From: Stereum hirsutum FP-91666 SS1
Taxonomy: Eukaryota; Basidiomycota; Agaricomycetes; Russulales; Stereaceae
Length of the DNA: 64,000 nt
Direction of reading: 5' to 3'
Assembly: GCF_000264905.1 (NCBI RefSeq)
Contig: NW_006763146.1
Location: 770,884 to 834,883 of the forward strand
Shown: positions 4,543 to 63,657 of the stretch, piece by piece
Numbering within the stretch: the first letter of the stretch is position 1
Layout: each line of letters begins with the position of its first letter
The notes under the pieces: model-generated
What the model was told of the DNA's origin: nothing
Databases searched by the model: none
What the model saw: only the letters and a program-made list of their open reading frames with translations
Program-made: the position numbers and the translations under genes

Positions 4543-5407
4543 TTCCTGAGATTGTCTCGTTGTCCCGAGGGCCGGCTGCTTTCAGGGTAAGTCTCTTCCG
4601 GGTTTGGCGATGTTAATCATACGCGGACTCACAGTTACCCCTAGGGGTGGTTGTCTGTTGTTTTGGGTATGGTCGGTTCCTTTGTTCTTCCATGCAGAGG
4701 TGCCACTCCGTCTATTTGCACCCCTTCGGACTTAGTTCGTAGTCTGCTTACTTTTGTTTGTGCTACCTCGTTTCCGTTAACCATAACTCGGAGTTTATCT
4801 CTGTCCAGTGTCGCTCTTTGTTTCAGTTTCACCCGTACTTTCGTTTACTCAGTTTTGTTGCTGCGTCACTCGTTAATAATTTCGTTGAGGACTTTCTATA
4901 GTTTCGTTCCTGTTCCGGCCGTACCCGTTCGTGATTGTGGTTCCTTCCATATTTAGGCTCCGTTCAAATTGATGCGTTTGTTCCGGCCACAGGCTATGGT
5001 CCCTGCATTGCGTGCGATATCGAAGGAGGGCCCCTTTGTTCGTCTTCACGTTGGGGTGTGCCTCTACTGGTTCACTCGTTGCATTCCGTGGGGTCTCGTA
5101 TACCGTATGGAATATCATCCTGGCATTACGAGTGTATAAGGCGTCAAAACACATGCTATGTCATAAGGAGAGGAACGTAAATAGGCGTGGTCGTAGCGGT
5201 TGCTCACGACCTCATCAGTGCATCATGTATGACCTAGACGTGGCGCGGGTGATCGTGTTTTCAAGGGCGAAGGAGTGGGAAAGAGGTGTAGCGGTACTGG
5301 GCATAAAAAGATGAGGGGGAAGCGGGAGAACAGAAGGTTTAGTCAAAGCGTGATTCTCGTAGGTATCCTTAGCTCGGTCGTATATGGGAGTCCTCAGCGG
5401 GGCGGCC
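4543..5407. other. no gene seen between the 270-aa gene and the ORF1-like gene
   Basis: The stretch is T/G-rich on the plus strand and has only short scattered ORFs with no recognisable domain. It covers the 3' flank of the plus-strand gene and the 3' end of the minus-strand ORF1-like gene. I see no repeat or RNA gene. Confidence 0.4.
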
Positions 5408-16531: not shown

Positions 16532-17171
16532 TTTGTCTACCTGGAGAAAATCGGTTATATTTCGAACGTACATTCGAAATATGCCTTCCTTACCTCGAGC
16601 GTTGTTCTGCGCAGATATATATGTTTCAGAATCAGTTTCGTATTCCTGATCTCAATAAACCTGTGGAGGCACCTTAGGCTCTGATATCATTAACGCCAAG
16701 AATCAGCAAGAGAGTCCTGTGATTCATTGATCCCCATCGAGAGTAGATATGTTGATATACGATAGAGAGCGCACGTACCTACTGAGGTTCATAGACCCAA
16801 GGGAAAGGTACACGAAGTTGACACTGACGTCGCAGTCCAACGTACACCGGCAAAAATTCAAACGCCAAACAAAATTCGACAGTCTTGGCCAACCACGGTT
16901 TCTGGTTAGGGCTTAGAGTGAAGCGGCTGCTGTGGCACCCGGATGCGTCGCCACACAGTACGAGTCTCTCCCCTCTTCCATCACCATCGTGGAGGAAATG
17001 ATTGCATCGCCTAATATCTGGTCCTTGCCTGATTTTGTTTCGCTCTATCTAGTATATGCACAGCTATTCTGATCAAGCTGTCGACTGGGGAGACGTTATA
17101 AAGCGTGGACTACCTCATTTGTGTACCACCGTCCTTGTCTTCGTACATCTATCTCTGTCACAGAAGCCGCT
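16532..17171. other. intergenic between divergent genes; no gene seen
   Basis: The upstream regions of the minus-strand F-box-like gene and the plus-strand 364-aa gene meet here. No ORF, repeat or RNA gene is apparent. Confidence 0.45.
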
Positions 17172-18686
17172 ATGAGACGTCTTCTGGCTGAGAACTCTCA
17201 GCGTCGCAGAACAGTTCGTCAAACATCTAGTAACGATGACGGAGCATCGATAGCTTCAAACTCGACTGTTCTTCCAAGGTCTCTGATTCCTCTATGTAAA
17301 CTATGCGGATTGGAGGCCAGTATTATCACGGAAAGCTGACTCACGTTCTTGGCCGCACACCTAGTTATACCTCTTTTCAAAACCATTCAGACGACACGGG
17401 TGCAGCCTTTGATCTGTCTGCTAACGACTCTCAGGTGCCTGGTGGCGGTGACGAGGTGTCAATTGCGTCGCATGCGACCTATCCTCCGAGGTTTGAATGC
17501 CAGTTTTGCTCATAGGCCAGCCTAACTCTCGTGATCATAACATAAACACTTACCACCGCTCACGCTCATTCATCTAGTTACGCCACTGTTGAAGACGCCT
17601 CCGAAATTGTCGCTGCCGCTGATGACGGCCTGGTCCTCGGTAGAGAGAGGACGCCGAGAACAACGCCTGCTTCTCTCGAACCTCCTTCAGAACATCCTGA
17701 AACACCGTTTTCCGGATTTGATCGTCCTCGGGATGTGAGCACTGGTCTAGATCAACGCACCGGGCATCTTCCCCCTCCCTCAGAAGTAGTGCTATCATGG
17801 GACGGTACTCAAACCCCTGCGCCATCGCAAGAACCTCAATCCCACACTATTGGACCAACCACGTATACGTTTTCCACACTTTCCTTCAACTCCATGCTTC
17901 TGTTACCGCCATCGGATGCGACAGACACTCGACCGCTGTACCATGTTTCTGTGGCCCACAATTGTTTCATGCCTTTGTCTTACATCACAACCGTTAGGAA
18001 AGGGGGGACCGAAAACGGAGAGTTTGTGGGTGATTTCGAGTAGGTTTTACATTTGTTGAGCACTCAAGCAACATAGGTGGTCCCCTCGTGACACTCACTA
18101 AAGGCACATTTGACAGAATGGGGTTGTCGCAAGCTAAATCTCGAATCTGCATTGGCGACCATCAGACATTTTTGAACGTTTTCGTTAGTGGGACACCGCA
18201 GTCATCCGTTCGCTCATCCCACCATCTTTATTCCCTTATAAATTGTCACGGTGCGCTATCTCGCTTCTCTTATAAATCAGACTTGGGTATGCAACTTCCC
18301 CGACTCCCGCTTCCGTTGGGTAAGATCAACCAGGGCTCCAAATGCTCAAGTACGTATTACTTTTTTTAGTCCCGTCATGCAGAAGACATAAAACTTGCTC
18401 ATATTGGTGTTACCTCTCCCAGATTATGAGCTGTTACAAGATCAGACTCACAGACTCAGGCTCACCGCTTAAATGGCAGCTCCTTGCGACTTTCACTCCA
18501 TCCGATCTGTTACCTTCTTCATTCAAACGTAGTGCGAGTGGAGCAAGCGGGGCGCAAGAGCTGGTCGTTTTCCCAGAAGCCAGAGAGAAGGTTGGAGAAC
18601 GGTCAGACAGGGATCTGTTAGATCTGATCGTGTTCAGCTTGTTGGTCGTAGAAAGGATGAGGTTATCCGTCACTCTAGAAAACTGA
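17172..18686 (+). CDS. Agaricomycete-type protein of unknown function (DUF6593-like), 364 aa, 6 exons
   Basis: Exons 17172-17278, 17365-17490, 17578-18029, 18077-18183, 18281-18319 and 18423-18686 join with consistent phases into 365 codons. The N-terminal 150 residues are Ser/Asp-rich and disordered. The folded part starts around TYTFSTLSFNSMLLLPPS, followed by DTRPLYHVSVAHNCFMP. It ends with the segment DLLDLIVFSLLVVERMRL. That combination (a disordered head, an RPLY-HV core and a C-terminal I/L-V-V-E-R strand) resembles the DUF6593-type proteins abundant in mushrooms. I recognise it only by pattern. No catalytic motif, signal peptide or membrane segment is seen. Exons 1 and 2 each end in a similar Ser-Ile-Ala-Ser...Pro-Arg segment, suggesting exon duplication. 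Confidence 0.65.
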
Positions 18687-19079
18687 ACAGGGGTATCATC
18701 AGACGCAGGGAAATATCCGAATCAGCAAGAGGCCATAATTGTTCATAACTTATGAAGTTGATCCACAGCTAGATGTACACGCAACGGGTAGCTATATATC
18801 CCGGAGTACCTTATGGCAGCCTATCCTACGCTAGAATTATATACTTATACCGATCTCTGATTGTGTAGTTATAACAGGAAAAACCACGAGTGATGAGAAG
18901 GACAGCGTAGGTAGACGACGCCAGAAAACGATGTCGCGTTTCCGCTCGCTCCGTATCTTTTGACTTTATAATGCCAATGCTCCAGCTCAATGACTCCTCC
19001 ATATGTTCTCCAGTTCCAGTACTCGTAACATACAGCAAGGCCTTCGGATCGCTACATTTGAACTGACTTGTGGACAGAG
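18687..19079. other. intergenic; possible extra 3' exon of the adjacent F-box gene
   Basis: Nothing certain is present. On the minus strand the F-box gene could splice at a GTATGT donor near 19,119 to an acceptor near 19,060 and extend its C-terminus, but no paralogue comparison supports this. Confidence 0.3.
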
Positions 19080-21236
19080 TCAGACTCGGCCAGCCACAAA
19101 CAAAAACACGAGACATACCTCGTCCGACTCGTCATCGTCCGCCTCGTCATCGTCCGACTCGCCATCGGTGTTCGTTGATAGGACATCCGTCCCTTCCGTC
19201 TTCCCGTCCCACTCAACCGAGTCCGCGATCCCCATACCCCACAATGACTGCACCTGCTCTACCGTAATCTCGCAATCGATGAGGTGGAGTTCGCGGAGCG
19301 CGAGACCATTGTCTTCACGTCTTGGTCGAGCAGCGATGGCTCGCAGGCACTCGAGGAATTCTTGGGGAAGGGGAGCGGTGGGATCGAATTTCCATTCTCT
19401 GAGATAGAGAGAGGACAAGAGCGGAAGAAGAATTGGAATGTCAGTTGTTGCCTTTGGATTATCGTCCGGAACAGGAGGACTGCTCTTTGTCGACCATGTC
19501 AGGATAGGACTGTTGGCGGGCTCGAAGTACGATGCGAAATGCACCGGCGAGGCAATCAAGTGGAGGATGGGCAAACAATACGAAGCGGATCGACAGAGAA
19601 CCAACTTCTCCACTGATGACAGAAGACGTAGCACAGCAGGCCAAAAACCGAACCGTTCCATTTCTATAGTCCCCTTCTGATCGATGACGAGGTCCTGTAG
19701 CGTCTCCAAGCGCAAATGCTGCAAGACCTTGGTCACCACTTCATAAGCCAAGTCCACAGAGTCCTGTGGCTGTATTTCGTGCGCACTCTGATAACCAAGG
19801 TCAATCCGTTTGCCGGTTTTCATGTTGACTGTATCAGCATGACTGCTGCCAGCGGAAAGAAAGGCATCGGCTGGTAGACGGGTGTCCCAACAAGCCGTTA
19901 CGTGCTCCAGGTCGCCAGAGCTGACACTCATGTAGAATGTGCGGATGGGGATTTCTGGAGAGTCCGGAATGACGCTGAAGAGAGGGGATACGGTATCGGA
20001 AGCTGCGTACTCGTCCTCGTAGTGGTCATAGACCATCCAGTACTCCAGACGGCATTCGGGGTGAAGACGTATATATTGGGCGAAATTGGCGCATCCTGCC
20101 GCGTCACCACGCAGGCTGAAACGGGAGATGTTGGGAAATAGAAAGAGATCGGTGGAACGATGGTGAGACGTGGTAGAAGTACGCAGCTGAAGAGGCTCTA
20201 TAGGGTGACAACACTCGATGTTCAATATTTGCAGGCGGGGCATCTGATTGAGCGCATGGAGGAGATCAAGGGTAGATGGAAGGAGGGACCATGGCCTTGC
20301 ATCATCGGTTACCAGCTCGAGATACTTCAGGTTGTGCACAATGGGAGATCGAAGTATGTCGCCGAGGTAATAATTTCCTTCGATACGCAGATGTCGTAAT
20401 CGCGGGGCAATCCCGGCAAACAGGTCAGAAGGAATGGGGGTTTCTTCAGGATCATCTTGATAGTCATATTTATCGTCTCGGGAGTCGCATTCTATGTGTG
20501 CGACTTCCAGCCAGGGTGCAGGCTGCGACAGTACCTCTGCTAGAGTGTCGACGCTGGACATGTTGATGCATAACCGTCTGTAGGGCAAGCCACTAGCGAG
20601 CACACCACGCAGCCACGCAGTGTATTCATCGCCACGAGGGTGATATATCTCCAGAGGAGCTTGTCGTGTGGATGCCCGCGCCTGCATCTCCGTTCTCCAT
20701 CGAGGGTTCTCGGTCCATAGATTAGCCCACAAACCCCCGCTATGTAGGGCGATAATTCTCCAGCGGCGACAGACCTGCGACGCAGAGATGAGAGATTCGA
20801 TATCCCGGATCTCTTGCTCTCTCCACTCGTCAAAATGGCTCTCGCAAGACTCTTTGGACAGCCCAATCCACGCTGCGGCTTCGTCGCTGGTGCGTGAATC
20901 CATGAGTGGCGCGACGTGAGCGAAGATGGCAGTGATGATTTCGGGCGGAAGGCGGGAGATGGGGGTAAGTCGATTCTTCAGAGACGCTAGTGATAGAGCA
21001 TAGCTCTTTATATTCAAGGCCTCCCTGGCGAGGAATTGTCGGGCCAGCATAACTTGTGAGTTATCCAAAGCCGGGCCGTTTTGTAGGCCCTCGCTGATGA
21101 AGGCTAGTCTTTGCCTTGCTACGGACCAGAGATCATCACTGCGCAAAAAGTAACAATTCAAAGCAAATACTATCAGCCACATATACTTATGTTTAATTGA
21201 ATCTCAATAATATGAGAACGCGTACTTCATCGACAT
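19080..21236 (-). CDS. F-box protein with LRR-like body, 689 aa
   Basis: A first exon of 11 nt (21236-21226, ATGTCGATGAA) splices over an 87-nt intron to 21138-19080, giving MSMNDDLWSVARQRLAFI. An N-terminal helical region is followed by an F-box core (LPPEIITAIFAHVAPLM ... SQVCRRWRIIALHSGGLWANLW). The body has irregular leucine-rich repeats (LRHLRIEGNYYLG, MPRLQILNIECCHP, LRELHLIDCEI) and an acidic Asp/Glu-rich tail. This is the standard Agaricomycete F-box architecture, inferred to be a substrate receptor of SCF ubiquitin ligases. It is paralogous to the genes at 27,329 and about 30,043, which share the intron position before (N)DDxW. A GTATGT donor 40 nt before the stop leaves an alternative C-terminus possible. 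Confidence 0.85.
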
Positions 21237-22205
21237 GACTAGTAAATCCTCGAGTGCTTGATCGTGAACAAAAGTCAAGTGGCGTCGGCGATGATCTAAC
21301 GCTGCAGGGTCAGTGGACTATGAGTATTTCGCGACTCAAAAATCTCGATACTCACTCTGATACTGAAGGTGACAGTAGACGGGGGAACAAGTGTCCTGGA
21401 TGTGTTGTCAGCACGTCTGGTTCAAAAGAAGATGAAGGGAAGAATGGGGCATTGCTTTGTCTCCCAAAGCGGAGCTCAAAGCTGAGCTCAAATTAAATCT
21501 TGTGTGGCATTGTGGCCCAGCTGCTGGCCATCAGCGAAACTGCAAGCACAGCGAAGGAGCCTCTTTTCTGCCAACGCAGAAATGAATCTCGATTAAATTC
21601 TGCTGTCACAGAACACATACACCCTTTGTCCGGACGAGTTCTGAGCGTGCAGAACAAGATTGTTCTCGTTTCTACCCGTACAGAAAACAGGATCTGGCGC
21701 TGTGAAGAGAGTTACGTGCACTCATGAGTGGCTGGAATCGCTCATGACTGACTAAGTACTCATTCGTGAAATTTAAGTTGCGAGATAGAGAGAAGCTGGA
21801 TAAAATGAGCAAGAAACCTCATCTATCCAGACTCCTAGTGCGCCACAGTATCACACATTTGCTGCGTATGTATGTTTCGTGGGCCATTGCACTTCGGGAA
21901 GCCACCTACCGTTCACGTTCCTCACTCAAAAATACCGGCAGCACTCTAATTACTGTGCACACACAATAGTAGAAGCAACATCAGTCCATTATAACGTCCA
22001 GTAGTAAGTAAGTCACAAGCAAAGCTAACGCTACAAAGTTCGTCTCGACTCAGAACTGCTCAGCAGTCAAAGTCCGAATATCTAAAGTCATAAGAAGAAA
22101 GATAGTCCATGTTAATACAGTTCCTCCTGCCCTCCACCTTCTTCCCGTCCATTCTTGCCTCTATGAACGACGCCGAACCACTCCCTATCCATCTATATGG
22201 CTCGC
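21237..22205. other. intergenic, no gene seen
   Basis: This is the upstream region of the F-box gene and the 3' flank of the Ser/Ala-rich protein. Short frames only. An AAAGC.GAGCTCAAA direct repeat is visible near 21,466-21,491. Confidence 0.4.
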
Positions 22206-23558
22206 TCACAAAGTCTGCGTCAACAAAGAGGACAAATCCAAACTACTCGCAGTGGCAGAGGAAGGCGCAGAAGTGATCGTAGCGCTAGCGCTCGCAGCTG
22301 CGGCGGTGGAGAGGGAGAATCTGTCGACCGAGCTTGAACTTGAGCTTGCAACGGCGGAGGCCGAGGCGGCGACAGCGGATGAGGTGGTGGGAATGCCGGA
22401 ATCGAATGCGATGCTTGATGACGCAGATACGGTTGGGAAGGCGGCGGCGGAGGAAGCGAGAACAGACGCAGATGCACTGGCACTGGCACTGGCAGACGGA
22501 GCGACTGAACTGAAAGCGGCTGACGAGGGGGCCGCCGTCGCACTAACACCAGTAACGCTCGCAGCGCCCGAAGCAGCAGCAGCACTCGCACGCGCAGCCG
22601 CGACACCAGAACTCACAGCACCCCCAAACACACTCTCGAAATCGAACGACGCGCTCGAGCTCGCAGTAGCAGAGGCAGCGCCCGAATTGAGGTTGATGAC
22701 GGTGGCGAACGATGAATTCGAAGATGCGGAGGATGTAGGCGCTGCGGCTGCGACACCGAATGCGGAGCTGGCGGCAGCTTGGGCTGAGGATGTGGAGACG
22801 GCGGAGAGAGGGATGGAGGAGAGGCCGGTGGAGAGTGCGATGGCGGAGCTGGCGCTAGCACCCGTAGCCACAACGGCACTCGCAGAGCTCGCTCCAGATG
22901 CGCTGAGCACAGAGTTCACGCCGGATGCCCCAATGACTGACGAGCTCGCTCCAGATGCTCCTGATACGACAGCACTTCCTGTAGCGGTGGCGTTTGTGGC
23001 ACCGGCGCTGACGGTGACGGTGGAGAAGATGTAGACTGTGGGTATACCGTCTGTCCCTGTGGATGTGGTGGTAGAAGCTGCTGCGACGGCGGATGAAGAA
23101 GCGGAGGGAACGGCAGTGATGGAACCAGAGGCTGCAGCGACAGTCGCACTCGCTGCCCCAATCGCACTACCACTGGCAGTAACAGCCGCAGAACCAACAA
23201 CTGACGACGATCCCAGCACTGTACCCATAGCAGACGCAGCAGCAGCCGTAGAGCTGACTATACCTCCGAACGAGAACGATTCCGCGGCGGAGGAAGAGGT
23301 GAGTTGACGGCGGTTGAGATGAATGGTGGTGGGGTCGTCTGGGGAAGCATTGAACGCGGCAGCGCCGGGGTTGATTATGGAGTCTGATGCGACTGAGTTG
23401 AGATATCCCATATGTTAGAGTATGAATAATGTGGAAATTGTATTGAACGCACCATCAGCGGTATCTCGTACAACAGGTTCGGCGCGCGGTGTAGGGGCAG
23501 CGAGGGCTTGAGACGCAAGAACGGCAAGGAGGAACGAGTGGGAAGTCGTGAAGTGCAT
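22206..23558 (-). CDS. secreted Ser/Ala/Val-rich low-complexity protein, 430 aa
   Basis: Exon 1 (23558-23453) encodes MHFTTSHSFLLAVLASQALA, a clear signal peptide with an Ala-X-Ala end, then TPRAEPVVRDTAD. It splices (GTGCGT donor, CTCTAAC branch, CTCAG acceptor) to exon 2 (23392-22206). After SIINPGAAAFNASPDDPTTIHLNRRQ the protein is almost entirely Ser, Ala, Val, Thr and Gly in no fixed register. A few islands are less biased, such as DGIPTVYIFSTVTVSAG and FDFESVFGG. There is no C-terminal hydrophobic GPI signal or further membrane segment, and few Cys. A cell-wall or extracellular, probably O-mannosylated role is plausible from composition, but no family is recognised. The reverse strand carries a 260-codon frame that is only a GC-bias shadow. 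Confidence 0.75.
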
Positions 23559-24165
23559 CTTGAGTATCGATAATGTCTAATCGTTCAAACGAATGCTGTT
23601 GCAGGATAATATTTTCAAGAAAAATGAGAGAGGTGCAAGCTGGAGAAAGAGCACCGGGCTCAAGAGTCTCGCGGTCTAGGTGAAGAGAGTGGTGGGACGA
23701 AAGAAACCTGAACCATTCTATATTGCTCGATGGCAGGGATTATATACACTGGAGAATACAACAATAGGACCTAGCTGGAAACAATGAGCAGACGTGGGAC
23801 AAGAACCGGGGACTGTGGCTGTGGACAATGCGCGAGTCTGAAGCGTGCCGGCGCCAAAGGGAACAAAGGACGTGATAGCCGGAAACGGAAGTCCGAGGGC
23901 TTCCATCTTTATCTCTGTGTGGACCGCTCCGGTTACCGACGGCGCCGCCACCCGACGCCATTTATACCTACCTGCGCGAACTAGAGAAATATCGAGAATA
24001 TCCGTGCCAGACGACTGCAGCGACGACGACGCCGACGACAGGAGACTGTGGTGCGATCCAGCGACCAGATCAACAAAACCTAACCCTCGATTGGGGCTTC
24101 GGACTGTTCCGCCGACAATTGTACAGGCGCCCTCCTTAAATTTGCTGACAGCCGATCCGTTTGCG
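23559..24165. other. divergent promoter region between the Ser/Ala-rich gene and SHMT
   Basis: The two genes are transcribed away from each other. A TATATAA-type sequence on the minus strand near 23,740-23,746 lies about 185 bp upstream of the secreted protein's ATG. No separate gene is supported, though a GC-rich minus-strand frame crosses the region. Confidence 0.4.
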
Positions 24166-26509
24166 ATGTTGCGTCTCTCTTCGTCTCTACTCTCTCGTTC
24201 TCTTCCCCTTCGCTCCTCTCTTCCCCTTCTTTCCACTGCCCGTAGGACCATGGCTTCCACTCCCGACTTTGTGAGTGTTCCGATTTGTTTTGTTGTGTTG
24301 TTCGTTCCTTTTCCCCGCATTGGCGTTCATATGCTTTGATATGACTCACCGAGCTGGTTTGCGGGGTTCTGAGCAATTTTTGGGGATTTTTGCTCCGGAC
24401 TTGAATGCTATTGAAGGCATAAGTCTTGTAGGACAGAAGCGGCGCTGTCTTTGTCCTGTTGTTTGGACTGGCTGAGCTTGCGAGGACGAGCAAGACTTTG
24501 TCCGGCACGAATTGTGGCGACTGCCCCCCAGTCTCTCAGCACTCGGTGGGGTCACGAATGGTCTTTTGGGGTGGTGACAGCATATTGCAGAAGGCAGACG
24601 GCATGCGTTACGTACACCTCTCGCCCGCTGTATGATCCGAATAGCTCCTATGTTTTTTGGAGTTCACCACTTAGGAGTCTCTTATGCTCAAAGTGGCCCT
24701 CCCTAAGGGCTGCAATCTATTGCTTTGACCTAGGATACTGACATGTACCCTTAACTACAGAACAAGTGCCTCTACGCCCCTCTCTCCGAAATCGATCCCG
24801 AAGTCCAAAACATCATCGACAAGGAAACATGGCGGCAGTACTCTGGTCTCGAACTCATCGCTTCTGAGGTATGGAATTCCTCTTTTCGTACACACTCCAC
24901 TCGACCTCACTTATTCACGTCATGGAATTAGAACTTGACCAGTCGGGCAACCATGGAAGCCAACGGCTCCATTCTTACCAACAAGTACTCCGAGGGTCTC
25001 CCCAACGCTCGTTACTACGGTGGTAACGAGTGGATCGACGAGCTTGAGATTCTCTGCAGGAAGCGTGCTCTTGAGGCATTCCATCTCGACCCAAAAATAT
25101 GGGGTGTTAACGTCCAGCCCTACTCCGGCTCGACTGCTAAGTGCGTCTTTTCCTATACTCCCCCGCAAGGACTCTGCGCTGACGTGCGTGTGCCGATTGT
25201 AGCTTCGCTGCCCTCACTGCGCTCCTTCAACCGCAGGACCGTCTCATGGGTCTCGGTCTCCCTGACGGTGGCCATCTCACCCACGGTTACTACGTACGTC
25301 CCCTATCCTCCATTCCCTCACACTTCGCCTCAACTGAATCCACCACTACCCTTCCATACAGACCGCCAAAAAGAAAATGACCGCCTCCTCCATCTACTTC
25401 CAATCCTTCCCCTACGGCCTCGACCCCGACACCCAGCTCATCGACTACCCCAAACTCGCCTCCCAAGCCCGCATCTTCAAACCCAAACTCATCATCTGCG
25501 GTGCCTCGGCTTACCCCCGCGACTGGGACTACGCCAGTTTGAGGAAGACGGCGGACGAGCACGGCGCGTACTTGATGGCCGATATCGCACACACGAGCGG
25601 TCTGGTCGCGGCGCAGGAGTTGGCGGATCCATTTGAGTTCTGTGATGTCGTTACGACTACTACGTGAGTCTCTCCTCCCTTATCTCCTCTCGCTTCGTCG
25701 ACTTGTTAAATGTTAAACTGTGTATAGGCATAAAACCCTCCGTGGTCCCCGTGCCGGTCTCGTCTTCTTCCGCAAAGACGGCCCCACGCGCGCCGACCTC
25801 GAAAAACGCGTGAACGACGCCGTCTTCCCTGCCTGCCAAGGCGGACCTCACAACAACACCATCGCCGGTATCGCCACCGCTCTCAAGCAGGCCGCCGACC
25901 CGTCCTGGAAAGCCTACGCGAAACAGGTCGTGGCGAACGCGAGGGCACTGGCGGACGAGCTCGTCAAGGAGGGATATAAGCTGCAGACTGGCGGGACGGA
26001 CAACCATTTGGTGCTTTGGGATTTGAGGCCTCTTGGGTTGACGGGCAGTAAGGTGGAGAAGGTCGGCGATATGTTGGGCATTACTATCAACAGTGCGTCT
26101 CGCTCTCTACCCTCTTCATTTTCTCTCTTCTTCTCGAATAGGTTGGTGCTGACCGTGCTATGAATTGTGTCGAATAGAGAACGCCGTCTCCGGTGACGTC
26201 TCCGCCCAAGTCCCTGGTGGAATCCGCCTCGGCACCTCCGCCCTCACCTCCCGCAACATGCTCGAATCCGACGTGCGCACCGTCGCCCAATTCCTGCACC
26301 GCTCCGTTCAGCTCTCGCTCGCACTGCAGAAAGAGGCCGGGACGAAGCTGTTGAAGGATTTCGTGAGGGTCGCGTCGGAGGGTGAGGGCGAGGGCGCGAA
26401 GCAGGTGAAGGTGTTGGCGAGGGAGGTTAGGGAGTTTGCGAGGAGGTGGCCGTTGCCGGGTGTTGTGGGCGAGATTAAGAAGCCGGCGGGGATTGAGGAG
26501 GAGGATTAG
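24166..26509 (+). CDS. serine hydroxymethyltransferase with possible mitochondrial and cytosolic start sites
   Basis: This PLP enzyme converts serine and tetrahydrofolate to glycine and 5,10-methylene-tetrahydrofolate. Seven exons: 24166-24270, 24761-24868, 24932-25140, 25203-25293, 25362-25663, 25728-26092 and 26178-26509, all in phase. From the second ATG (24250, [15 protein letters not shown]) the protein is 475 aa; from the first ATG (24166) it is 503 aa. The 28-residue extension is rich in Leu, Ser and Arg with no acidic residue, a good mitochondrial presequence. Family landmarks are intact: [47 protein letters not shown] [12 protein letters not shown], and the PLP lysine in [14 protein letters not shown] (K246 in the short form). 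Intron 1 is long (490 nt). The C-terminus WPLPGV...[10 protein letters not shown] is normal. One gene may serve both compartments. Confidence 0.95.
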
Positions 26510-27328
26510 AGGATTAGACTCTCGGGTAGAGAGTCGGTCGCGGAAGGCGGACTGTTCATCCAGTTCGTGGTTTTGTGACGATGGGACCGGATGGTCGCGG
26601 GGCAGTAGCGATCTGCTCATCCAGTTCGCGGGCGTCGTTCATTGATTCAGTTGGTTTTTGGTCCGTTGAGGTTGGAGTTCGACGTGGAGGGTGAGTCGAG
26701 TTTGGGCTGGGTTGCGTGTATGATTTTGCGGCAGCTTCACTGTATTATCTCAGAAGATTCAACGTCGTTGGATGGATGAACCAAAACGGACTTCAACATC
26801 GTCCGGTATCGCTCCTTTCACGCTATACGTCACTTGTAGATTACAGTACATCCACCGTCGTTTGCGCACGAATGCATACGTAGATGGTTTTCTTGCGTAC
26901 ATCTGGAGCTGAATCTTTCCGAGCGGGGTCCGGCAAAGAGGTAAAAATGAATTGTTCTATGTGTGGCACCTGTACGCCACACCGAGCGCCGGTATTTTCG
27001 AGCTCCGCTTCGGTTCACCGGACCACCGACCGCGAGTCCATGACACGCTGATCAGTTCCTCCTCGCGAACTTGTCGACTCCTCACCAAGTCTTCAGGCCT
27101 CAGCTTTCATCGACCCTCTATCTCGCGCCACTGCACCTGAAATCCACTCAGTCGCAGACCCTTTGACATAGTAGAAGTAGGCCCGGAAGAGGTGAGCGAT
27201 TTACAAGTCGTTCATCGGTGATCAGATCAATATCCCCAACTTCAAGCTACTCAATGAAACTCTATTTGTTCCCACATGTCTTAGAGGATCAACCTCAGAA
27301 CCCAAGCGCCTACCAAGCAACCTCACAG
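26510..27328. other. intergenic, no gene seen
   Basis: SHMT 3' flank and F-box 5' flank. A phrase close to GACTGTTCATCCAGTTCG recurs at about 26,549 and 26,612, giving a short direct repeat. No gene or RNA is supported. Confidence 0.4.
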
Positions 27329-29312
27329 ATGACGACAAAGTATGTTTTCTGTATCTTCTCTTCAACGATTCACTCCGTTTTGACGACCACGTTATCGTCG
27401 TTGTATTAACTGATGGTATAGCGATGATTTCTGGACCACGGCGCCACGATATAGACTGGATGCCATTACAGAGCGTATTCATACAAGTCTTTCCAAGGCT
27501 ATGGATCCGTTGCTCGTCGAACGGGACATCGATGCTGAACTTCGACACATAGACGAGTACAGGCAACAAATCCTCGCTCAGAAGAATCTTCTCGCCCCTG
27601 CCGCACGTCTCCCTCCTGAAATACTCATGACTATCTTCTCCCACATTGCACCAGTCGTGAGCTCCCGTGATAACGACGGAGCTGTCACTATGTACCAAGA
27701 TATTGAAAACTCCAGCGAAAGCCACGAGGTTGAAGATCGTGAGCAGGATATCGAGGACATTTTATCCATCATTTCCATCTCGCAAGTCTGCCGCCGTTGG
27801 AGAGACGTGGCTCTGCATTACCCGAGCCTGTGGGTCAATATATGGACCGAGAATATCGCGTGGTCTCAGCAGATGCTGACTCGCGCGCAAGACATGGCCC
27901 TGGAGCTCTACGGTTCTGACGAACTCAATAGATTGGATTTCATATCCGCCTGCCTGGCTTCTATGCGATGCCGACGACTTTGTATATTTATTCCTACCAG
28001 TCGCAGCGTGGCAGACATACTTGCGCGACCTGCGCCGTGGCTGGAAATCCTGCACATCGAGCTGGAAGGCATATATAACTACCAGCGACCGAATATCAAT
28101 GTCTCATCTCAATTTTTCTCTCAGGAGTCCCCTCGCCTACGCCACCTCCGCATCGCAGGGAACCATGGCTACCGCGAGCTACTTCTCTCCCCTGTTTTAC
28201 ACAATTTAACCTCCCTCGAACTGTTCTCCGAAGAACCGCTATCGCCCATTCCCTCGATTCCCGCGTTGCTGGATGCGCTCAAACGGATGCCACGCCTTAA
28301 TAATCTGGCTCTCGATAATGTCCTTCCCACCAAACCTTTGAGGCTTCTTCCCTCTGCATCCTTGTCGTCCTCTGACATTGTACAACTCCCTTCCATGTCA
28401 TGTCTTACTCTCGCTGGATATTCTTCTTCGTGCGCCAATTTCACGCAACACATACGGCTTCCGCCCGATTGTCGTATCAGATATCGTCTGACCTACCGGA
28501 ACGAAGACGACGGATGTTCACCGCAAGACACTGTGCCCTATCTTTTCGGCGCAGCTCCTCGGCTCATGTCTTTACCTATACAGACCCTTTGGATGCGTAT
28601 CGAGACATATAATCTATGTTATCACTTTATGTGTTGGGATGTCGTCTTTTCGCCAAATCTGTTGTTCGCAGGCGTTGAGGAAGAGGATGTACCGCCGAAA
28701 CAAGTCGGCAACAGGCTAGATTTCCGGTTCGAAGACGATACACTTGGAGATGAAGACATTAACTTCGAGATGGTCAAACCTACGTGTGAGCGTCTATGCT
28801 TGGACGAGCTCAAGGATCTCATCATCGATTATACACCGTATATGCGTATGCATGACTTCGGCCTTTGGTCTACTATATTCGAGAGGATGCGCCGCCTGGA
28901 GAACCTCGTACTCAGACATGCAGCTTATTTCGAAATTCTCGAGATTATCGCTATGCCGTCACGTTTTGCCTCTCAACACAAAACTACATATCCGTCGGAT
29001 GAGGATGGAAACCTGAATAATGAAGAAGGGGACAAGGGGAACACAAGTATGATCCTTCTTCCTTGTCTGTCCTCCATCTGTCTCCAACGGTGGCACTTCA
29101 ACGATGAAAGACCTCTACCCCAAAACCTCCTCGACTGTCTTCACGCGATCTCCTCTCGTCCGGTAGAAGGCGCACAACGTCGTACGGCATTACGAGAGCT
29201 TCGTATCGTCAACTGCACGATCACTGCTGCCCAGATCGCCGCATTGGAAAGTCTAGGGATCGCCGAGGCGATTATTTGGGATGGTAGGACTAAGTCGAAG
29301 AGATGGGATTGA
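27329..29312 (+). CDS. F-box protein with LRR-like body, 633 aa
   Basis: A first exon of 11 nt (27329-27339, ATGACGACAAA) is joined across an 82-nt intron (GTATGT...TATAG) to 27422-29312, giving MTTNDDFWTTAPRYRLDAI. The F-box segment LPPEILMTIFSHIAPVV ... SQVCRRWRDVALHYPSLWVNIW sits near residue 60-130. Leucine-rich strands follow (LRHLRIAGNHGYRE, MPRLNNLALDNVLP, LRELRIVNCTITAAQI). It is the closest visible relative of the genes at 19,080-21,236 (minus) and 30,043-31,999 (plus), sharing exon layout, segment order and ending (SLGIAEAIIWDGRTK). The inferred role is an SCF substrate receptor. Confidence 0.85.
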
Positions 29313-30042
29313 GGGATATGATCTAAGATTGATGGGTTGAAGGTGAGATGGGAAGGGGAGTGAAAACGAAGGTTGAACAGTGTGCATTTCGACGCATCTT
29401 TTTCCTAGTTCGAGCGGGGGTGTTCATCCAGCGTGCACCAGCGATAATTGCGATAGTAGAACTCTGTTGTGTCCATCCAGTGTGTATCCCTCACTGTCAA
29501 TCTTATTTAGATGCTTTTGCAGACCGTTTCCGTATTTATCAGTCGCTCCAGGTGTGTTCAGTCGATGCTCTTCCGCTCAACAGATTGCACGAAAGATGTA
29601 CGATCTCACTTCCCGTATTGAATCTGAATTTTCGTTGTCTACCTCGCTGTGAATCATGCGACTAGAAGTGCTCTGCAAGAACATAATTCGAAAGATTTCT
29701 CAGGAAGCCGCACTTCTCTTGGTGGCCACGTGGCAATATTCCTTTGTTCGACTCCGCACAAATAGCGCTTGCAATGCCAAATTCATCATTGTTCTTGACT
29801 TCTACCAGCAGCCCCAGCTTATCGACCTCCTCAACACATATTCGACTACCAGTGAGTGAGATAAATACCACTGCTAGACAGCATGACTCACGAACCAATA
29901 CTGTATCTAAACAGAGCCGTAGGGACCCGCCAAGGAGTCCGTTGTGAAGGTCCACCGTTGGGTGCCTTTGTTCACGGTTGAGCAACTCGAGTCCGAAGAT
30001 CAATAACCGACAGATTCTCTGTTATGTGTGCAGCGACGGGGT
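29313..30042. other. intergenic between tandem F-box genes; no gene seen
   Basis: The spacer contains scattered short frames. An alternative first exon for the next F-box gene, ATG at 29,883 followed by a GTATCT donor, is possible here. Confidence 0.35.
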
Positions 30043-31999
30043 ATGGATCTCCTATTCCCTCTTAGCTTAGCAGATCGGTGTTGATTCCCTCTTTCTTCTC
30101 GTCGTGTCTTACCGTCACAGCGATGACTTTTGGTCCACAGCGGCAAGACACAGGCTGACTGTGATCCGAGATCGACATCGTGTCAACGTTTCTCGGCACG
30201 AGACACTGTTCGCCTCACAGCACCTTGATGCTGAGCTCAGCAATCTGGACGCTTATAGGCAGCAGATTCTCACTATGAAGAACGACCTTGTTCCTGTCTG
30301 CTGCCTTCCACCGGAGATTCTCGTCACCATATTGTCCAACGTCGCGCCACTTATGGACTTCCGGGACGATGTTGATCCTACGTTCTTGGCCGTGAACCTC
30401 CCTGCCGAGCGTGGGAAGGAGGTTGACGATATAATATCGCTCATAGCTACCTCGCAAGTTTGTCGCTATTGGAGAAATGTGGCTTTAAACTGTGCATCGA
30501 TCTGGGCGAATATCTGGGTGGAAAATCCCCTGTGGACGCAGGAGATGGCGAAGCGCGTGAGAGGCGTGCCACTGGAGCTTAGCGGACCCTTTGAGGACCC
30601 TGACACGTTTCAGTCCATCTGTTCTCTGCTGTCATCGTCGTCACCCTATCGGAGGTTGGGTATCTACATACCTGATACTTGCAGCATAGATGACTTGCTT
30701 TCGCGCCCGGCACCGACGCTTGAAGCCGCAGTCATCGAGGTTAACAGCAGCTCACACGGTCCCTTCCCCTCTCAAATCTTTTCACAGAACGCTCCTCATC
30801 TTCGACATTTGCGACTCGAAGGAGAACTTAAATACCACGAGATCCTGCGGTCGCCCATCATGCGCAATCTCATCCATTTAGAGCTCCGCTGCTCCGATTA
30901 TGCTGAGCTCGTGCCATGCCAATCTGAATTATTGGATGCCATAGGTCAGATGCCACACTTAGAAAACTTATGTCTCTCCAATGTCTTATGTGACGAGCCG
31001 TTCCAGTTGCGCGTATCTAGTCCTACTTCACCCCCCTCCGATATCGTGCAACTCCCGAACATTTATACTCTTGTTCTCTGCGGATTCTCGGGGTCGTGTG
31101 CTAATTTCGCTCAACAGATCCGTGTCCATCCCGAGTGTCGTTTCGAGTTTGAAGTTGACCATAACATTGAGTACGAGGAAGTACCACCATCGGCAACCGT
31201 CATCCCTCTGCTCAGCGCTATCCCATCCATCTCATCCCCCCCTATACGAGCGCTCTTGGTGGATATTAGCTCCCCCTCCGTAACCTTATGGAACCTTCCA
31301 CTGCATGTGGACATGATTCACACTGATATGAGTCACATTCATAACCTCACTCAAAAAGCAATGCGGGCGGCCATTCACTATGTAGATTCCGGCGGTTCTG
31401 CGCCTGGGCCCGAGTGGGACGAGCAAGAGCTCAATCGTGATATCGTTACTACGATATGCGAGCAATTGCATTTGGATCAGTTACAAGATCTTGTGATACA
31501 ATATCATTTGCCTACCTTGAAATTCCGACTCGCTTTCTGGATTCAGTTCCTGCGCAATATGCCTCGGTTGGAGAGGCTGGTGCTACATGGATCGCCCTCC
31601 CTCCCTGTTCTCGCTCTCGTAGCCAGTTCATCCTGCTTCATCTCGGGCCTTATCACGGTCAGCTCACTGGAAGAGGAAGACCTTTCGTCCAACACAAACG
31701 GGAGTAGCATCCCCGTAGAGCTTCCACTTCTTCCGCATTTATCCTCTCTCTGCCTGCGATATTGGCGATTCCGTCCGGACACTCCTTTCCCCAACTGCTT
31801 CATGGACTGCATCTATGCCATCTCCTCACGTACTGTAATCGATAGGCAGTACGCACTACAGGAGCTCGTCCTAGTCGATTGCGAGGTTACCGAAGCGCAG
31901 GTCATAGTATTGAGGGAAATGGGCATCGCAGAGTCCGTAACGTGGGATGGAAAGACGACAACGAGTATATTACCGCAGAATTATGTAGAGGAGGTTTAG
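30043..31999 (+). CDS. F-box protein with LRR-like body, about 637 aa; first exon uncertain
   Basis: The main exon 30121-31999 starts after a CACAG acceptor and reads DDFWSTAARHRLTVIRDRHR. It then has the F-box (LPPEILVTILSNVAPLM ... SQVCRYWRNVALNCASIWANIW) and LRR-like strands (LRHLRLEGELKYHE, MPHLENLCLSNVLC, LQELVLVDCEVTEAQV). It ends REMGIAESVTWDGKT..., like the paralogues. Exon 1 is my best guess: 30043-30077, with a short 43-nt intron and matching phase. An ATG at 29,883 with a longer intron also fits, so the first residues are not certain. It sits head-to-tail 0.7 kb behind its paralogue, consistent with local duplication. Confidence 0.8.
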
Positions 32000-57256: not shown

Positions 57257-57264
57257 ACGAGATT
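57257..57264. repeat. 8-bp target site duplication, left copy
   Basis: ACGAGATT immediately precedes the left terminal inverted repeat and is repeated exactly at 63650-63657 immediately after the right one. An 8-bp duplication is typical of P-element-type and hAT-type insertion. Confidence 0.9.
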
Positions 57265-57281
57265 CAAGAGGCAAGCGGGAT
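57265..57281 (+). repeat. left terminal inverted repeat of the 6.4-kb transposon
   Basis: CAAGAGGCAAGCGGGAT is the exact reverse complement of 63633-63649. Confidence 0.9.
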
Positions 57282-57534
57282 CAAAATTCGTGATGCAGGA
57301 TGTTTTGGGACGCAGTACGTAATCAGGCCCGCCGGGCAGCTCCGTCGCCAAATGCGGCGGTGCCACACAGCGGCGAACAAACGCCACATTGCCTCCGTTG
57401 TTCCTCCATTCCCTGTATCTACCAGCCCTCATCCTTATACCCTCGATATATGCGCTTCATTATTTTTTCATTGCTCTCTAATGCTGTAATACATCTTACT
57501 CCGTCCACTTTAATGAGTTTCAACCATGGTCATG

Positions 57535-60500
57535 AAGGTATTGTCCGACTCTTCGGGTCTCTGCAAAATCTTAACCATTCTGATACTACTTTTGAACTTC
57601 ACGGTCAACGAAAAATCTAGCACTTGAAAATCAACGATCAACTGGTAAGAGTCCACTTGAACTCTCCGTAATATTTTTACTCACCATTCATAAGCCATCA
57701 ATTCCAGAAATCAGGACTCGGATGTATCATATTCTCGCATAGCTCCAGACTCGACCGTTGCACTAGGACTCGTGTTCGACTCGCATCAGCTTGGGCGCTC
57801 AGATCTTGTTCACTCTTCTCAGACCTTTGCATCCAGCTCCAGCTCGCCTAGTCCCCTCACTGTATTATCAGATTTACCTGCACACTTTGATCTTGGAGCC
57901 CGTGCTGCTAGCTTGCCACCTTCCTCGACGTCTCGGGCTCAGACTCATGCACAGATATCCTCATCCCTCTTGACACTTGATACATCGACGAGCTCTCTCT
58001 TAGATTCCTGGACTTCTGCATCACCACAGCGCTCGCATCTGCATCCAGACATACATAATTCACTTCGCTTTCTGACTCCCACTGATCCAACTACAGGACC
58101 TACTATCACATATAAGTCTCAGGAAGTCGAGACTCGCATTTTCAATAGCGCATGGCAGCTCCTCTGTAGTGGATGTGATAGATGGATATCTACACGCTTT
58201 GATGGACGTGTTGACTTCGGTACTATACCCGGCCACTTCATTGCTCTAGACAACCATCGCTCTGGACGATATGCCTGTCATGGGAAGACCCCGTCTCTTG
58301 TCGACGCACTGGCATCATACCGGACACGAAATACACGCTATACATCGACGACTAGTACTTCAGGAGACTCGCCATCGCCATCTTCATACCTCTTCACTCC
58401 CATGTCATCCGCCTCTACAGCATCATCCCCACTGGTATCTGCTCCACATTCTCTGTCTTGTTCGCCAGCCGGAGCTTCCATGACATTCTCTGATTCTTCC
58501 GAGTCATCCAACGCCTCACTGTCCTTGCATATACCCTCCCCAGCTGCTTCGTCTGGGTATACAACTCAGCTACATATGCTGGAACCACCTAGCTTCGATG
58601 CATCCGACTCATGCGGAGCTCTTAGAGGTTCTGCTACCACCTCCGAATCCCCGATACTTTCCCCATCCAGCGACCGCTCTCATCGTTCATCACTATCCGA
58701 TCATACCTCTCCTAACAACAATATCACCACCATAACAGAGAACGCATACAGCCCACTGCACAACCGTACAGATTCAAGTCGCTCCTGCTCTACCAACTCC
58801 ATGTCCTCTGCTCATGTCAAAGACTGTCCCGGCGTTTCTATAGAATGGCCTTATGATCTCGGCCGCTTCGAGGCTACATTCCCGCTTCATCGCTGTGGTC
58901 CGTTAGATCCAAATGACATCCGTCGATACCCAATCGAAATTACTATTGATCGAGCGAGGAACCGACGTGCGTACTCCGTGGAGTGCCGTCAGAAGTGGCT
59001 CGACGGGTCTTGGACCTGTCCGGCTTGTTCCAAAGTTCCTCGTATCATCGAAAGCATCGTCTCACGGGCACGGAGCGATAACCCACACTCCACTTCCATG
59101 AATCCAGAACAGCTTTCCACCGCACTACATGATGCAAAGGAACATAACCGACGAACGGACGTTGAGGTACGTTGAGTGTGACTTTGGTGTGACTTGTATC
59201 TTCGGTTTCAGTACTCATGTTGACTCTGTCATAGATTCTGAATCTAAAGCGCGACTTGAACACGGCGAACGAACACATTCAAGAGCGCAATCAACTCTTC
59301 GATACCCTTGTCACTCTCCATCCAAAGCGGGCCACAGCTCTACTCGAAGCTCGTAAACGGCAAGGCGACAGCATCGCCAAGATGACTGGCGCTCTCATTC
59401 TCGCCGATCAAGAAAAGTACATAGCCAGGAACTTCTCAAAGCTTGAGCTCGATCTCGGTCACCTCTGCCTCTTGAAGGGCGGCGCTGCTCTCACATACTC
59501 GCTCAATCATAGCCTCGGTCTCCCCTCCATCGACACGATCCGACGGAACTGCACACCGACCAAAGTCCACCCAAACTTTGGTCCAATCTCCGACGAAGTT
59601 CTCGACGCTAACCTTCGCGACATATTTCTGGTCTCGCGCAAAAATCTGGAGGTCGTTATTGCCCAATCCGATTACCCTAGCAGAGTCGTACCTCGTAAGG
59701 GTGGCTCTGTGGTCATCGACGACATCACTATTGAGCAAGAAGCGACGTGGCATTCGAATGGAAAGCGGATGGGAGGCGGGTGCTTCAATTGCACAGAGGA
59801 TCAAGCAACGTGCATGGCATGTCAGGCTGATGTTGAGGCTACCGTCGAGGATTTGGAGGAAGGGAGGATGCATTTGGGGAAGGAGATGATGATGGCCGCT
59901 TTGAAGGTCTTCGGAGAGGCTGGGGTCTCGGCGATCATGGCTGCTCCGACATGCAAGGCCACCACCGCTCCGGAGATGGTCGTCATCTTCCAGCAGTTCA
60001 TCGATGCCATTCTACGGAATCCCAATATATTGCAGTACTTTCAGCTATGGGCAGTCGTCACTGACGGTGACGCCGTTCGACGTCTCGCCGGCTTTTTGCT
60101 TTTGATGAAGCATCACTTAGCAGAGGTGGATCCCGAGTTGTATGACATGGTCAAGGGCATGGAGGGATTCAACTTTCAGACAGGGCTGGATGGAGTTACA
60201 ATCGAGTTCGATTGGAAGCACATCTGGAAGCGTACGTCCTCTAGCTCTCTTCTCCTGAGTCCTTTCGTTGTTCGAGTCCTATCGCTTTGAGGAACACTAA
60301 TTAAAGTCATAAATTATATTCTGTATTAGGCGACTGCACGCTGCTGTGTTCTCTTACCGGCTACCGACTGAACGGGGGCGTGATTTTGAACCGCCTATGT
60401 CTCGAACGTTGGCTTCTCCAAGTCGACGGCCTGGGAGCTGACGCGGTACATCGTCTTCTCAACCCGAAGGATGCACAAGACGTTCCGCGCGCTATCAAAC

Positions 60501-63348
60501 TCTTGAAAGGGGTCATCTCTATTCGTCAGATCCCTCCCTCCGACGACCCTCAAGACAATACGGAGTTGGATGCGCTGAAGCTATTGGGCTATGTTTTGGA
60601 GACTATTCTGGAGCCCTATACCAACCTCGACCTCTCGCTTGAAGACCAGCTCGTGTCGCTCAGCTGTCATGCTCACTTGCTCTATGCCTTCTTCGTCAAT
60701 GATCGAAACGAATTCATTCCCAACCAACTCTACTTCGATACACAGGCTCTCATCAAGAGTACTTTCCTCTCTGTGGCTAAGCAGCAGAGACTTGACCCTG
60801 ACGGCGAATTTGACATCACCGACACGGGAGATGACGACCTCGAAACGGAGTTTGGCATCATACACGAGGACAGCAAGCATAGAGGCAACTTCAACTACAA
60901 GCAGGGTCTCGAGTATATTGGACACGCCAACGACATTCGCCAGATATATGTCCGGCATCCCCATCTCGCACCTCCTCATCGCCGTCTCAACGTCAAACGA
61001 GACGAACACATGGATCACATCAGTCGAAAGCGTCGTCGAGGTAGCATTCACGTTCGACCGGTCAGCATCGTTCCAGTCTGGAGAAGAGGACGCGAAGAAG
61101 CCTATCCCATTCTTCGCAACCACTCTAAACTACCGATATTGTCATACGATTTCTCGACCAGATTTGCTGATCTCGAAAACGATATGATGCGCCCCTTCGC
61201 CGAAGGCATATATCCCGGTATCCACAAGGACTTTCAGGGCGAAGACGCTTCTGCTCTACCTGTCATCTCCTCTTCTGACGATAGCCCTACGACGAAGAAT
61301 GCTACCGCGGATCCAGGACTCGATGATACACTTGTTTCTCCCACCGATATCTCATCTCTACCGACTTCTGGGCCTCTCGGTGCTGCTTCTCCCCTTCCTC
61401 GTCCTATTGACACTGTCTCACAGAACATCGAACCTGAAAACGGTGCACATACCTGCTCCGCATCTTCAGGTACCCCCACAGCTCCTACCCCAATCGTCTC
61501 GACCTTGGAATGCAGCACAGACCTCGATACAATGGCGGCTCCAGGATCGGAAGCCCAAGTCAGTGTTGATGCTGTCCTTGCCGACTCAGATGATATCCTT
61601 GCTGCTCTTCGTGGTGGAGCATCGCCAGCAGAGGTGCTCGCTGCAATCGTAGGCAGATGTGGTACGACTGTGATGCCGCGTGGCTCAGGGATAGACCCAT
61701 TCGACTGGATGCTTTGGAGTGGGAAGTATGTTCACCGAGCGACCATCTGCCGTGTCTTCGTTACCGGCTGGCACGAGCGCAAATCACATAACCGACCCGA
61801 GCGTGTATCGACATTCACACAATTTCGACTCATGCTCATTGAATACCCCGGAAAGGACCTCCCTACTCGTCATCTACTCCGACTCAACGACACGGTCTCT
61901 ACTCTAGTCCAATCAGGGAAGACGCTTTCGCTCGCCTTGCTGCGAGTCACTGCTATTCGCGACTCCACGGACCGCTATCCATACATTCCTCTGTCTACTT
62001 TGACGGCTTCATCGTCTCGGACAGTGATCGACGGCCAAATCATGGTTATGCAACATAGCCGTGCTACACAGGGAGTGTCCTCTGCTCGTTCTGCATCCTC
62101 ATCGACTTCTTCGTCCACGGCATGGGTCTGGTCAGGTGGATATGCTGTGGGGGCACGTTCTATGAAGGGTTCTGCGACTATTAGGACGGACAGTTCTCCG
62201 GAAATCACAGTATCTGGGCCTCTGGTTCGTAAACTCATGCCCGGCTCGCATCTGTGCACGGTCCACGCAGCGGAACATCTCTCCCCAGAGCATATGCTCA
62301 ATGTCAACTCTCTGGGAAGTACATACAGCATAGATGAATGCGAGTTGGAGGTCATATCTAAGGAGATATGGAGTATAGTGGAGAAAGGGGACCGTCGGGG
62401 ACTATCGTTTCCGATTGCAAAGAGCTGCTCGGGCTTTCCTTACAGGACGAATAACGGTACTGTGCATTTCCTTTGCAGTGAAAGGTTTTATTACTAACGG
62501 TTCTTTCCTTTCGTCAGGTCAGCTTGCTCTTGAATGCGTACCCGGCTCACAGCAGTTGTCAAAACAAGGGTCGACAGGAAAACATGCGACTCTTTTTTGT
62601 CATCTCTGCCAGAAGGATGTCTCGAACGGGACTACGACTGATGCATTCAGGTCGCATGTCAGTCGGCACAACATACATCACATACTGAAGACCGGTGCAT
62701 GCGGATGCGTAGATTGCTCTGCCGTTCATTGGGTGAGTTCTTATCCAATTCTTATTGCTCATTATACGTTCCAACCAATCGAGTTGTCTGTAGACGACTA
62801 CCCACCCTATACTCTGTGCGTATTGTGGTGAACCGGATGATCCCGACTGTGCCGTTGTCCTTCGTGTCGAACCAGACGGAACCCGTCACTCACACGAGTG
62901 CAAATGTCGCTACAAACCTGAAGGAGGCCTTCCTTACATGCTTGCTGCGAAAGGGACGAAGAAGAATCAGTCACGGAATGTACCAATACCTTGCGAACTC
63001 TGCCCCGAATCCACAACCCTCAAGTCTCACCTTAGAGACGGGATATGGAGGTATAATATGGATAGTCATATTCGAGGGAAGCATTCCGAGTACGCATCCC
63101 CCAGCCTTAGAACCACCACTCTTAAACGACTACCGATGGCGTTGTGGGAGGATATGAGAACGACGCAGGAAGAGGAGGAGGCACTGGAGATTCCCAGACA
63201 TTTACGTTGGTCATCATTCACTCATTTCATTCAAGAGAGGGAAGGAGGCGACATCCATGATGGCGGGTTAGCTAAGCCTAACGGTAAAAGGGCTAATCCT
63301 GGGTATAGCGGGGGTAGCAGTGCTAAACGAGCGCGAAAAGTTGCTTGA
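57535..63348 (+). CDS. P-element/THAP9-like transposase with N- and C-terminal zinc-binding regions, about 1,780 aa
   Basis: Certain exons are 57715-59166, 59235-60231, 60330-62456, 62518-62732 and 62794-63348, in phase over 1,782 codons. The first exon is not certain; a model from the ATG at 57535 with one or two short exons fits. Counting from 57715, a Ser-rich head carries a Cys/His cluster (LLCSGCDRW ... YACHG). A second Cys region follows (YSVECRQKW, WTCPACSK), then a coiled coil (LNLKRDLNTANEHIQERNQL). The catalytic RNase H-like part has VVTDGDAVRR (about D761), EFDWKHIWKR (D810) and a late DDDLETEFG (E988). The last resembles the D-x-L-E-x-x-F motif of P/THAP9 transposases. LLNPKDAQDVPRAIKLL and RRLNVKRDEHMDHI also recall that superfamily. 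The C-terminus has C2H2 fingers (FCHLCQKDV...HVSRHNIHH; PCELCPES...HIRGKH) and a basic end. Assignment rests on motifs plus the flanking TIRs and 8-bp duplication. Confidence 0.75.
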
Positions 63349-63632
63349 GAGTTTGCTGCTTTGTTCTTGTACACGTTAAAAGATATTCATGGCTGCTGCC
63401 CATCGTACTTTATGCTTATATATTTTTGACTCATATCATGATATACGTTACAGTGGTCCCCAGAAAAAAAATCTGAGAACCTCGACTGCTGGAACACAAA
63501 CTACGGTACATGCGAGGGGGGAGCACACCCAGTGTGGCAACGGCTCGCCACTCGAGCCGGACCTGACGAGCGGCGCGAAGCCACGCGAGATTACGTACTC
63601 CGTCCGGAACAAAATACCTGTCACGGAATCGA

Positions 63633-63649
63633 ATCCCGCTTGCCTCTTG
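63633..63649 (-). repeat. right terminal inverted repeat of the 6.4-kb transposon
   Basis: On the minus strand this reads CAAGAGGCAAGCGGGAT, identical to the left end. Confidence 0.9.
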
Positions 63650-63657
63650 ACGAGATT
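63650..63657. repeat. 8-bp target site duplication, right copy
   Basis: ACGAGATT directly follows the right terminal repeat and equals 57257-57264. Confidence 0.9.

Follow-up and report, generated by a model that had tools for sequence, protein, structure and literature searches.

The P element of Drosophila is a textbook animal transposon of a superfamily marked by 17-nt staggered cleavage. Its transposase uses guanosine triphosphate (GTP), a use called unique among transposases, through contacts in and near its insertion domain that include K385, K400, V401, S409, F443, D444, N447 and D528 (PMC7776569; this paper and the others cited here, PMC6416283 apart, are drawn on in excerpt). Distant P homologues have been reported from Amoebozoa and Chromalveolata in the excerpted part of PMC3985635, and the corresponding part of a survey, PMC4438587, places P-element among the superfamilies present in all groups, fungi included; mere P-like annotation in fungi is therefore not new. 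Here we describe an element at positions 57265-63649 of a stretch of 64,000 nucleotides (the window) from the mushroom Stereum hirsutum FP-91666 SS1 (contig NW_006763146.1, positions 770,884 to 834,883). With a probability of roughly 0.88, we read it as an autonomous cut-and-paste DNA transposon encoding a predicted transposase with a P-element-type catalytic core. Predicted folds place it among P-type elements, in a divergent mushroom lineage with altered DNA-binding parts.

Ends of the element and related copies in the genome

The element is 6385 bp long and lies between two copies of the octamer ACGAGATT (Table 1). Its terminal inverted repeats (TIRs), CAAGAGGCAAGCGGGAT, are the same at both ends, and inside them stands a subterminal inverted repeat that includes AGTACGTAATC, whose first base is number 50 counted from the left end and number 51 counted from the right. 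All coordinates given in a preliminary description for the ends, the 8-bp duplication and the 17-bp TIR hold, and the 11-bp inverted repeat that it reported near each end is present. The window was scanned for exact inverted repeats flanked by an exact 8-bp direct repeat, at spacings of 0.2-9.5 kb and with octamers of fewer than three different letters excluded. At 14 bp, one pair was returned for the whole 64 kb, and that pair is this element. The same scan of five order-1 Markov randomisations gave no pairs at 14 bp and none at 10 bp; at 8 bp it gave one pair, in one of the five.

The ends are not confined to this locus. Across the genome (46 Mb in 38 contigs), four places carry the exact TIR, the window accounting for two and contigs C6 and C13 for the others. 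Two further places, both on C13, carry it with one base changed, and a second copy, at locus L026, has its right end at one of these. At up to three mismatches there are 76 + 83 places against 45 + 68 for a reversed-pattern control, and because this excess is modest, distant TIR matches carry little meaning. The second copy is internally deleted and rearranged; it is 84-91% identical to the window element in the aligned parts and is therefore not recent. CTTCCGGG adjoins its right end; the left end, found in inverted orientation at a distance of about 4 kb, borders on the reverse complement of that octamer, a layout that probably reflects an insertion with an 8-bp duplication that was later broken by inversion. 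The preliminary description had proposed looking for other copies with duplications of their own, and this is one. The left 118 bp of the second copy were inverted along with about 2.6 kb of flank (L026 positions 3125-3257 / 5860-5867), and GAACGAAC, element positions 111-118, stands at both inversion junctions, like a filled-in staggered break.

Four more distant full-length families are present in the genome, each with its own duplication: L029 (7731 bp, GTACAAAC), L030 on contig C8 (7971 bp, ACCTTCAA), L031 (6822 bp, locus positions 1021-7842, CGCATCCC) and L034 (6463 bp, locus positions 2681-9143, AGCTGGCG). L059, at 1232 bp, resembles L030 in its ends and is flanked by the duplication AATCGGAC. 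Perfect 8-bp duplications are thus found at seven loci, the window included, with seven different octamers, and all five full-length elements have CAAGAGG or CAAGGG at both ends (CAAGGG in L031 and L034). Over 642 residues, the Stereum hirsutum protein P0099 matches L030 at 100%. The subterminal repeat had been taken as a parallel to the 11-12 bp subterminal inverted repeats of the P superfamily. It is clear in the window element, one of five full-length elements; the other four have matches of at most 9 bp beyond the TIRs in their outer 400 bp. These counts come from 11 fetched loci, four of which gave a TIR/duplication pair by scan and one (L026) by inspection, and from three further candidates, of which one gave a pair. 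No pair was found in L027, L028, L032, L033, L035 or L036 (six of the 11 fetched; a third of L033 is N). One full-length copy of the window family was found.

Several candidates were rejected. A pair on C11 (1618528/1625325) is an inverted duplication, since its inverted repeat continues through both flanks, and L060 has TIR-like ends without a common 8-mer. L028 and L041, on C13 at about 1580-1590 kb, represent a segmental duplication of the L026 site and not an independent insertion. They comprise the right end with 2.7 kb of flank, 94.9% over 2750 bp, and L041 has 26 bp of the left end with left flank about 9 kb away (flank match by eye). L027 holds a left end alone, whose octamer occurs nowhere else in the 9.9-kb locus. 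Within L030, a nested pair inside the TIRs (ATTGCAAT) and a 0.7-kb pair with 6/20 mismatches are chance-like, as is, considered as a copy of this family, a 463-bp pair in L034 with different ends. The latter (L034 positions 9336-9798), counted with its 8-bp duplication GCCACCGT and with inverted ends AGGCGCATGGCATATGC, looks like a small element with unrelated ends.

The predicted transposase and its relatives

Five predicted exons with GT-AG introns join in frame to give 1788 codons without a stop, and a predicted protein of about 1790 residues. The exon set and splicing are predicted throughout, and the N-terminus is tentative. Exon 2 holds a predicted helix-turn-helix (HTH) and the RNase H strands with the first two putative catalytic residues, D653 and D768; the third, E995, lies in exon 3, beyond a predicted helical insertion domain. 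Three protein searches returned 150 distinct relatives. Each search scored only the candidates with the most shared 5-residue words, and the limits of the family are therefore not shown by them. All 144 relatives with a species name belong, by genus name, to Agaricomycetes. NCBI lists them as hypothetical or uncharacterized protein; a C2H2-type domain is mentioned in one UniRef name. Of the 150, 149 are without a precomputed Pfam domain, so domain annotation misses them. The preliminary description had mentioned unannotated related proteins in Agaricomycete genomes.

The relatives were compared in three alignments, A2 (52 of 89), A3 (36 of 150) and A4 (39 of 150). In A2, the position of D653 is Asp in 52 of 52 relatives, that of D768 is Asp in 51 (with one gap), and that of E995 is Glu in 49, which conforms to an Asp-Asp-Glu (DDE) triad; the position of D992, the counterpart of a P residue in contact with GTP, is Asp in all 52. 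Two sets of putative zinc ligands accompany the catalytic core. In 37-38 of 39 relatives the site between the two Asp residues reads C, H, H, C, and in the window protein it reads C, C, H, C. The C-terminal array has all 12 of its 12 ligands in the window protein, with each ligand present in 34-38 of the 39 relatives. From these ligand patterns, we infer that both sets would bind zinc.

A tree of 57 rows was built, L029, L035 and L036 being left out (translated core below 250 residues). In it the transposases of L031 and L034 pair apart from the other members, with a long-branch warning (P0083 with L031 and L034). The model of the relative P0044 has a mostly confident beta-rich region at 640-860, ahead of the zinc array; this C-terminal region had no listed fold match, though it was not searched alone.

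Fold, sequence and state of the element

For AlphaFold models of two relatives, the top fold match is the Drosophila P transposase, far ahead of Transib, RAG1 and hAT. In both models the match spans the HTH, the RNase H domain and the insertion domain, and its Z score exceeds those of Transib and RAG1 by about 10-11 units. The arrangement itself, a predicted HTH with an RNase H domain interrupted by a helical insertion that lies between beta5 and alpha4, is that of a P-type fold. Duplications of 8 bp and an RNase H fold that carries a large helical insertion are features of hAT elements too; hAT and KDZ, in turn, have low scores in the fold listings or are absent from them, and we hold membership of the hAT superfamily to be very improbable. 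A KDZ element (Zisupton/Dileera/Kyakuja) is more improbable still. Zisupton makes 8-bp duplications, and Kyakuja and Zisupton are known in Agaricomycetes (excerpt of PMC12730594), but the fold favours P, and general Pfam scans of the window frames and 36 relatives, not aimed at KDZ, matched no KDZ family.

Several results weigh against the P-type assignment, most of them from sequence comparison. No Pfam family reached the cut-off in five window frames, a negative outcome for the profile check against P/THAP9 that had been proposed. Among 36 relatives, the P-type families TNP-like_RNaseH_N and _C were matched by one each (E 0.039 and 0.056) and were outscored by unrelated families (SCRL in two members, best E 2.2e-4; NCAB2 in one, 8.1e-4). 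Alignment to the P core by hhalign gave a probability below 1% and a score of 21.5, which was matched by one of 20 shuffles (21.6). PF21787 had no match in the window genome, a null result that is uninformative because 14 control genomes were also without one. As for the proteins themselves, Lys occupies the catalytic Glu position in 3 of 52 relatives, and the window protein differs after that Glu at several otherwise conserved positions (R592 to H, G595 to S) and lies on a long branch of 1.97. Its fold is carried over from the relatives' models, and the second copy of its family has the divergence given above.

Further attempts to link the family to P by sequence do not hold up. Searches of PDB sequences that started from P0001 or from profiles A1 and A2 yielded no hit below E 0.4. 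A semi-global profile alignment to P slid to a trivial 11-pair overlap and was discarded, as was a forced global alignment, which scored -6.3, above every one of 100 shuffles (best -11.5, z 3.4), and was gappy and missed D243 and E585. Kinship to P by sequence alone is not shown. The P/THAP9-like motifs attributed to the protein in the preliminary description are accordingly weak as sequence evidence, and the P-type reading of the element is supported by the fold matches of the two models, not by sequence. Because similarity to P/THAP9 profiles was not found, we file the element as a divergent P-type variant and do not assign it to the P/THAP9 family.

The same results could be read as the mark of a separate, undescribed superfamily, which would have its P-type fold only through the common descent of the P/RAG/Transib group. 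Similarity to P transposase that is not significant suits this explanation, as do the C-terminal zinc array, an Asp at the tentative K400 position, and the THAP domain, of which none was found in five window frames (E <=1; N-terminus tentative) or 36 relatives (E <=10; many partial). It is harder to reconcile with a P match so far above Transib and RAG1 over all three domains in both models, and with a duplication length and CA ends the same as those of P. We consider a separate superfamily unlikely and retain the P-type assignment.

Whether the P-type element can still move is a further matter, for it may be a dead relic that kept its ends and gene and lost mobility. One full-length copy was found, the second copy is diverged, deleted and rearranged, and the long branch and the altered residues after the catalytic Glu point the same way. 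However, neither the TIRs nor the octamers have a mismatch, the frames have stayed open, and the triad and all C-terminal zinc ligands are kept. Loss of mobility is in our view quite possible but less likely than not.

Elsewhere in the window, a minus-strand open frame at 549-2888 has endonuclease/exonuclease/phosphatase and reverse transcriptase matches and is likely part of a non-long-terminal-repeat retrotransposon. Four F-box-like frames at 15242-31996 are perhaps an F-box gene cluster, and part of a plus-strand frame at 34387-36060 matches the Carboxylesterase family.

Table 1. Coordinates of the element, its predicted gene and other frames in the window
Feature	Position	Strand	Remark
Left target duplication	57257-57264	.	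read directly
Left TIR, 17 bp	57265-57281	+	read directly
Left subterminal inverted repeat, 17 nt	57308-57324	+	94%
Exon 1 (predicted)	57694-59166	+	first open exon, open from a stop codon; further upstream exon possible
Exon 2 (predicted)	59235-60231	+	DWKH motif at end
Predicted HTH	59430-59549	+	alignment to P0049 part set on P transposase HTH by hhalign
D653 codon	59718-59720	+	predicted first catalytic Asp (P D230)
Predicted zinc site within RNase H domain	59781-59954	+	C674, C677, H704, C731
D768 codon	60063-60065	+	predicted second catalytic Asp (P D303)
Predicted alpha-helical insertion domain	60210-60835	+	beta5/alpha4; across intron 60232-60329
Exon 3 (predicted)	60330-62456	+	
D992-E995	60833-60844	+	D992 at the place of D528, a GTP contact in P; E995 the putative catalytic Glu (P E531)
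Exon 4 (predicted)	62518-62732	+	splice pair 62456/62518 picked from three open options
Predicted C-terminal zinc array	62598-63084	+	C2H2-C4-C2H2; across intron 62733-62793
Exon 5 (predicted)	62794-63348	+	with stop codon
Right subterminal inverted repeat	63589-63605	-	
Right TIR, 17 bp	63633-63649	-	read directly
Right target duplication	63650-63657	.	read directly
F-box-like frame	15242-16648	-	below cut-off
F-box-like frame	19080-21200	-	
F-box-like frame	27414-29309	+	
F-box-like frame	30071-31996	+	

Comparison with P, THAP9 and Zisupton elements

P-superfamily elements with defined ends had been called little described in mushrooms. Indeed, no paper on a P-type element in a mushroom appeared, by title or beginning of abstract, among the listed matches from the open-access literature, closed literature and Repbase being outside this search, and the words "P element" are not in the main text of the fungal transposable-element survey PMC6416283. 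The claim stands in that respect and is weakened by the fungal P-element entry in PMC4438587. The ends defined here (CAAGRG with an 8-bp duplication) can be used to annotate mushroom genomes.

In the mechanism that we propose, the predicted transposase would recognise the TIRs and subterminal repeats by means of its HTH and probably also of the C-terminal zinc array, which would take the place of the THAP finger found at the N-terminus of animal P elements. The protein would then bring the ends together, cut them with its D/D/E site and connect them to target positions separated by 8 bp, with gap repair yielding the duplication. Copies that share these ends and are short or internally deleted would be mobilised in trans.

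Zisupton shares with the mushroom elements its 8-bp duplications and its presence in mushrooms (PMC12730594, excerpt); the Pfam and fold results given above count against a closer tie. The zebrafish Pdre2/THAP9 system has in common with them an 8-bp duplication, short TIRs, subterminal repeats and internally deleted relatives (excerpt of PMC10983969). According to the same excerpt, zebrafish THAP9 retains the GTP-contact residues together with K400, whereas Asp is usual at the tentative K400 position of the mushroom family. With the register set by eye on a Q-x-V-x-x-A motif, that position is Asp in 47 of 52 relatives and Lys in none, and the position of P V401 is Val in 48 of 52. GTP use by the mushroom transposase is doubtful.

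A further comparison is with Drosophila P itself (PDB 6p5a and 6pe2; P features from the excerpt of PMC7776569). The two have in common an 8-bp duplication, CA ends, the DDE positions, a predicted HTH with a split RNase H and helical insertion domain, and, for the window copy, an 11-bp subterminal inverted repeat. In contrast, the window TIR is 17 bp against 31 in P, and the element 6.4 kb against 2.9. The mushroom family also differs in its predicted zinc site between the two Asp residues, in its C-terminal zinc array, preceded in a relative's model by a beta-rich region, and in that no THAP was found. A large mushroom lineage that shares the predicted core fold, in which no THAP was found and the putative GTP pocket is altered, bears on the origin of the P superfamily, and it is a natural comparison for the role of GTP in P transposition.
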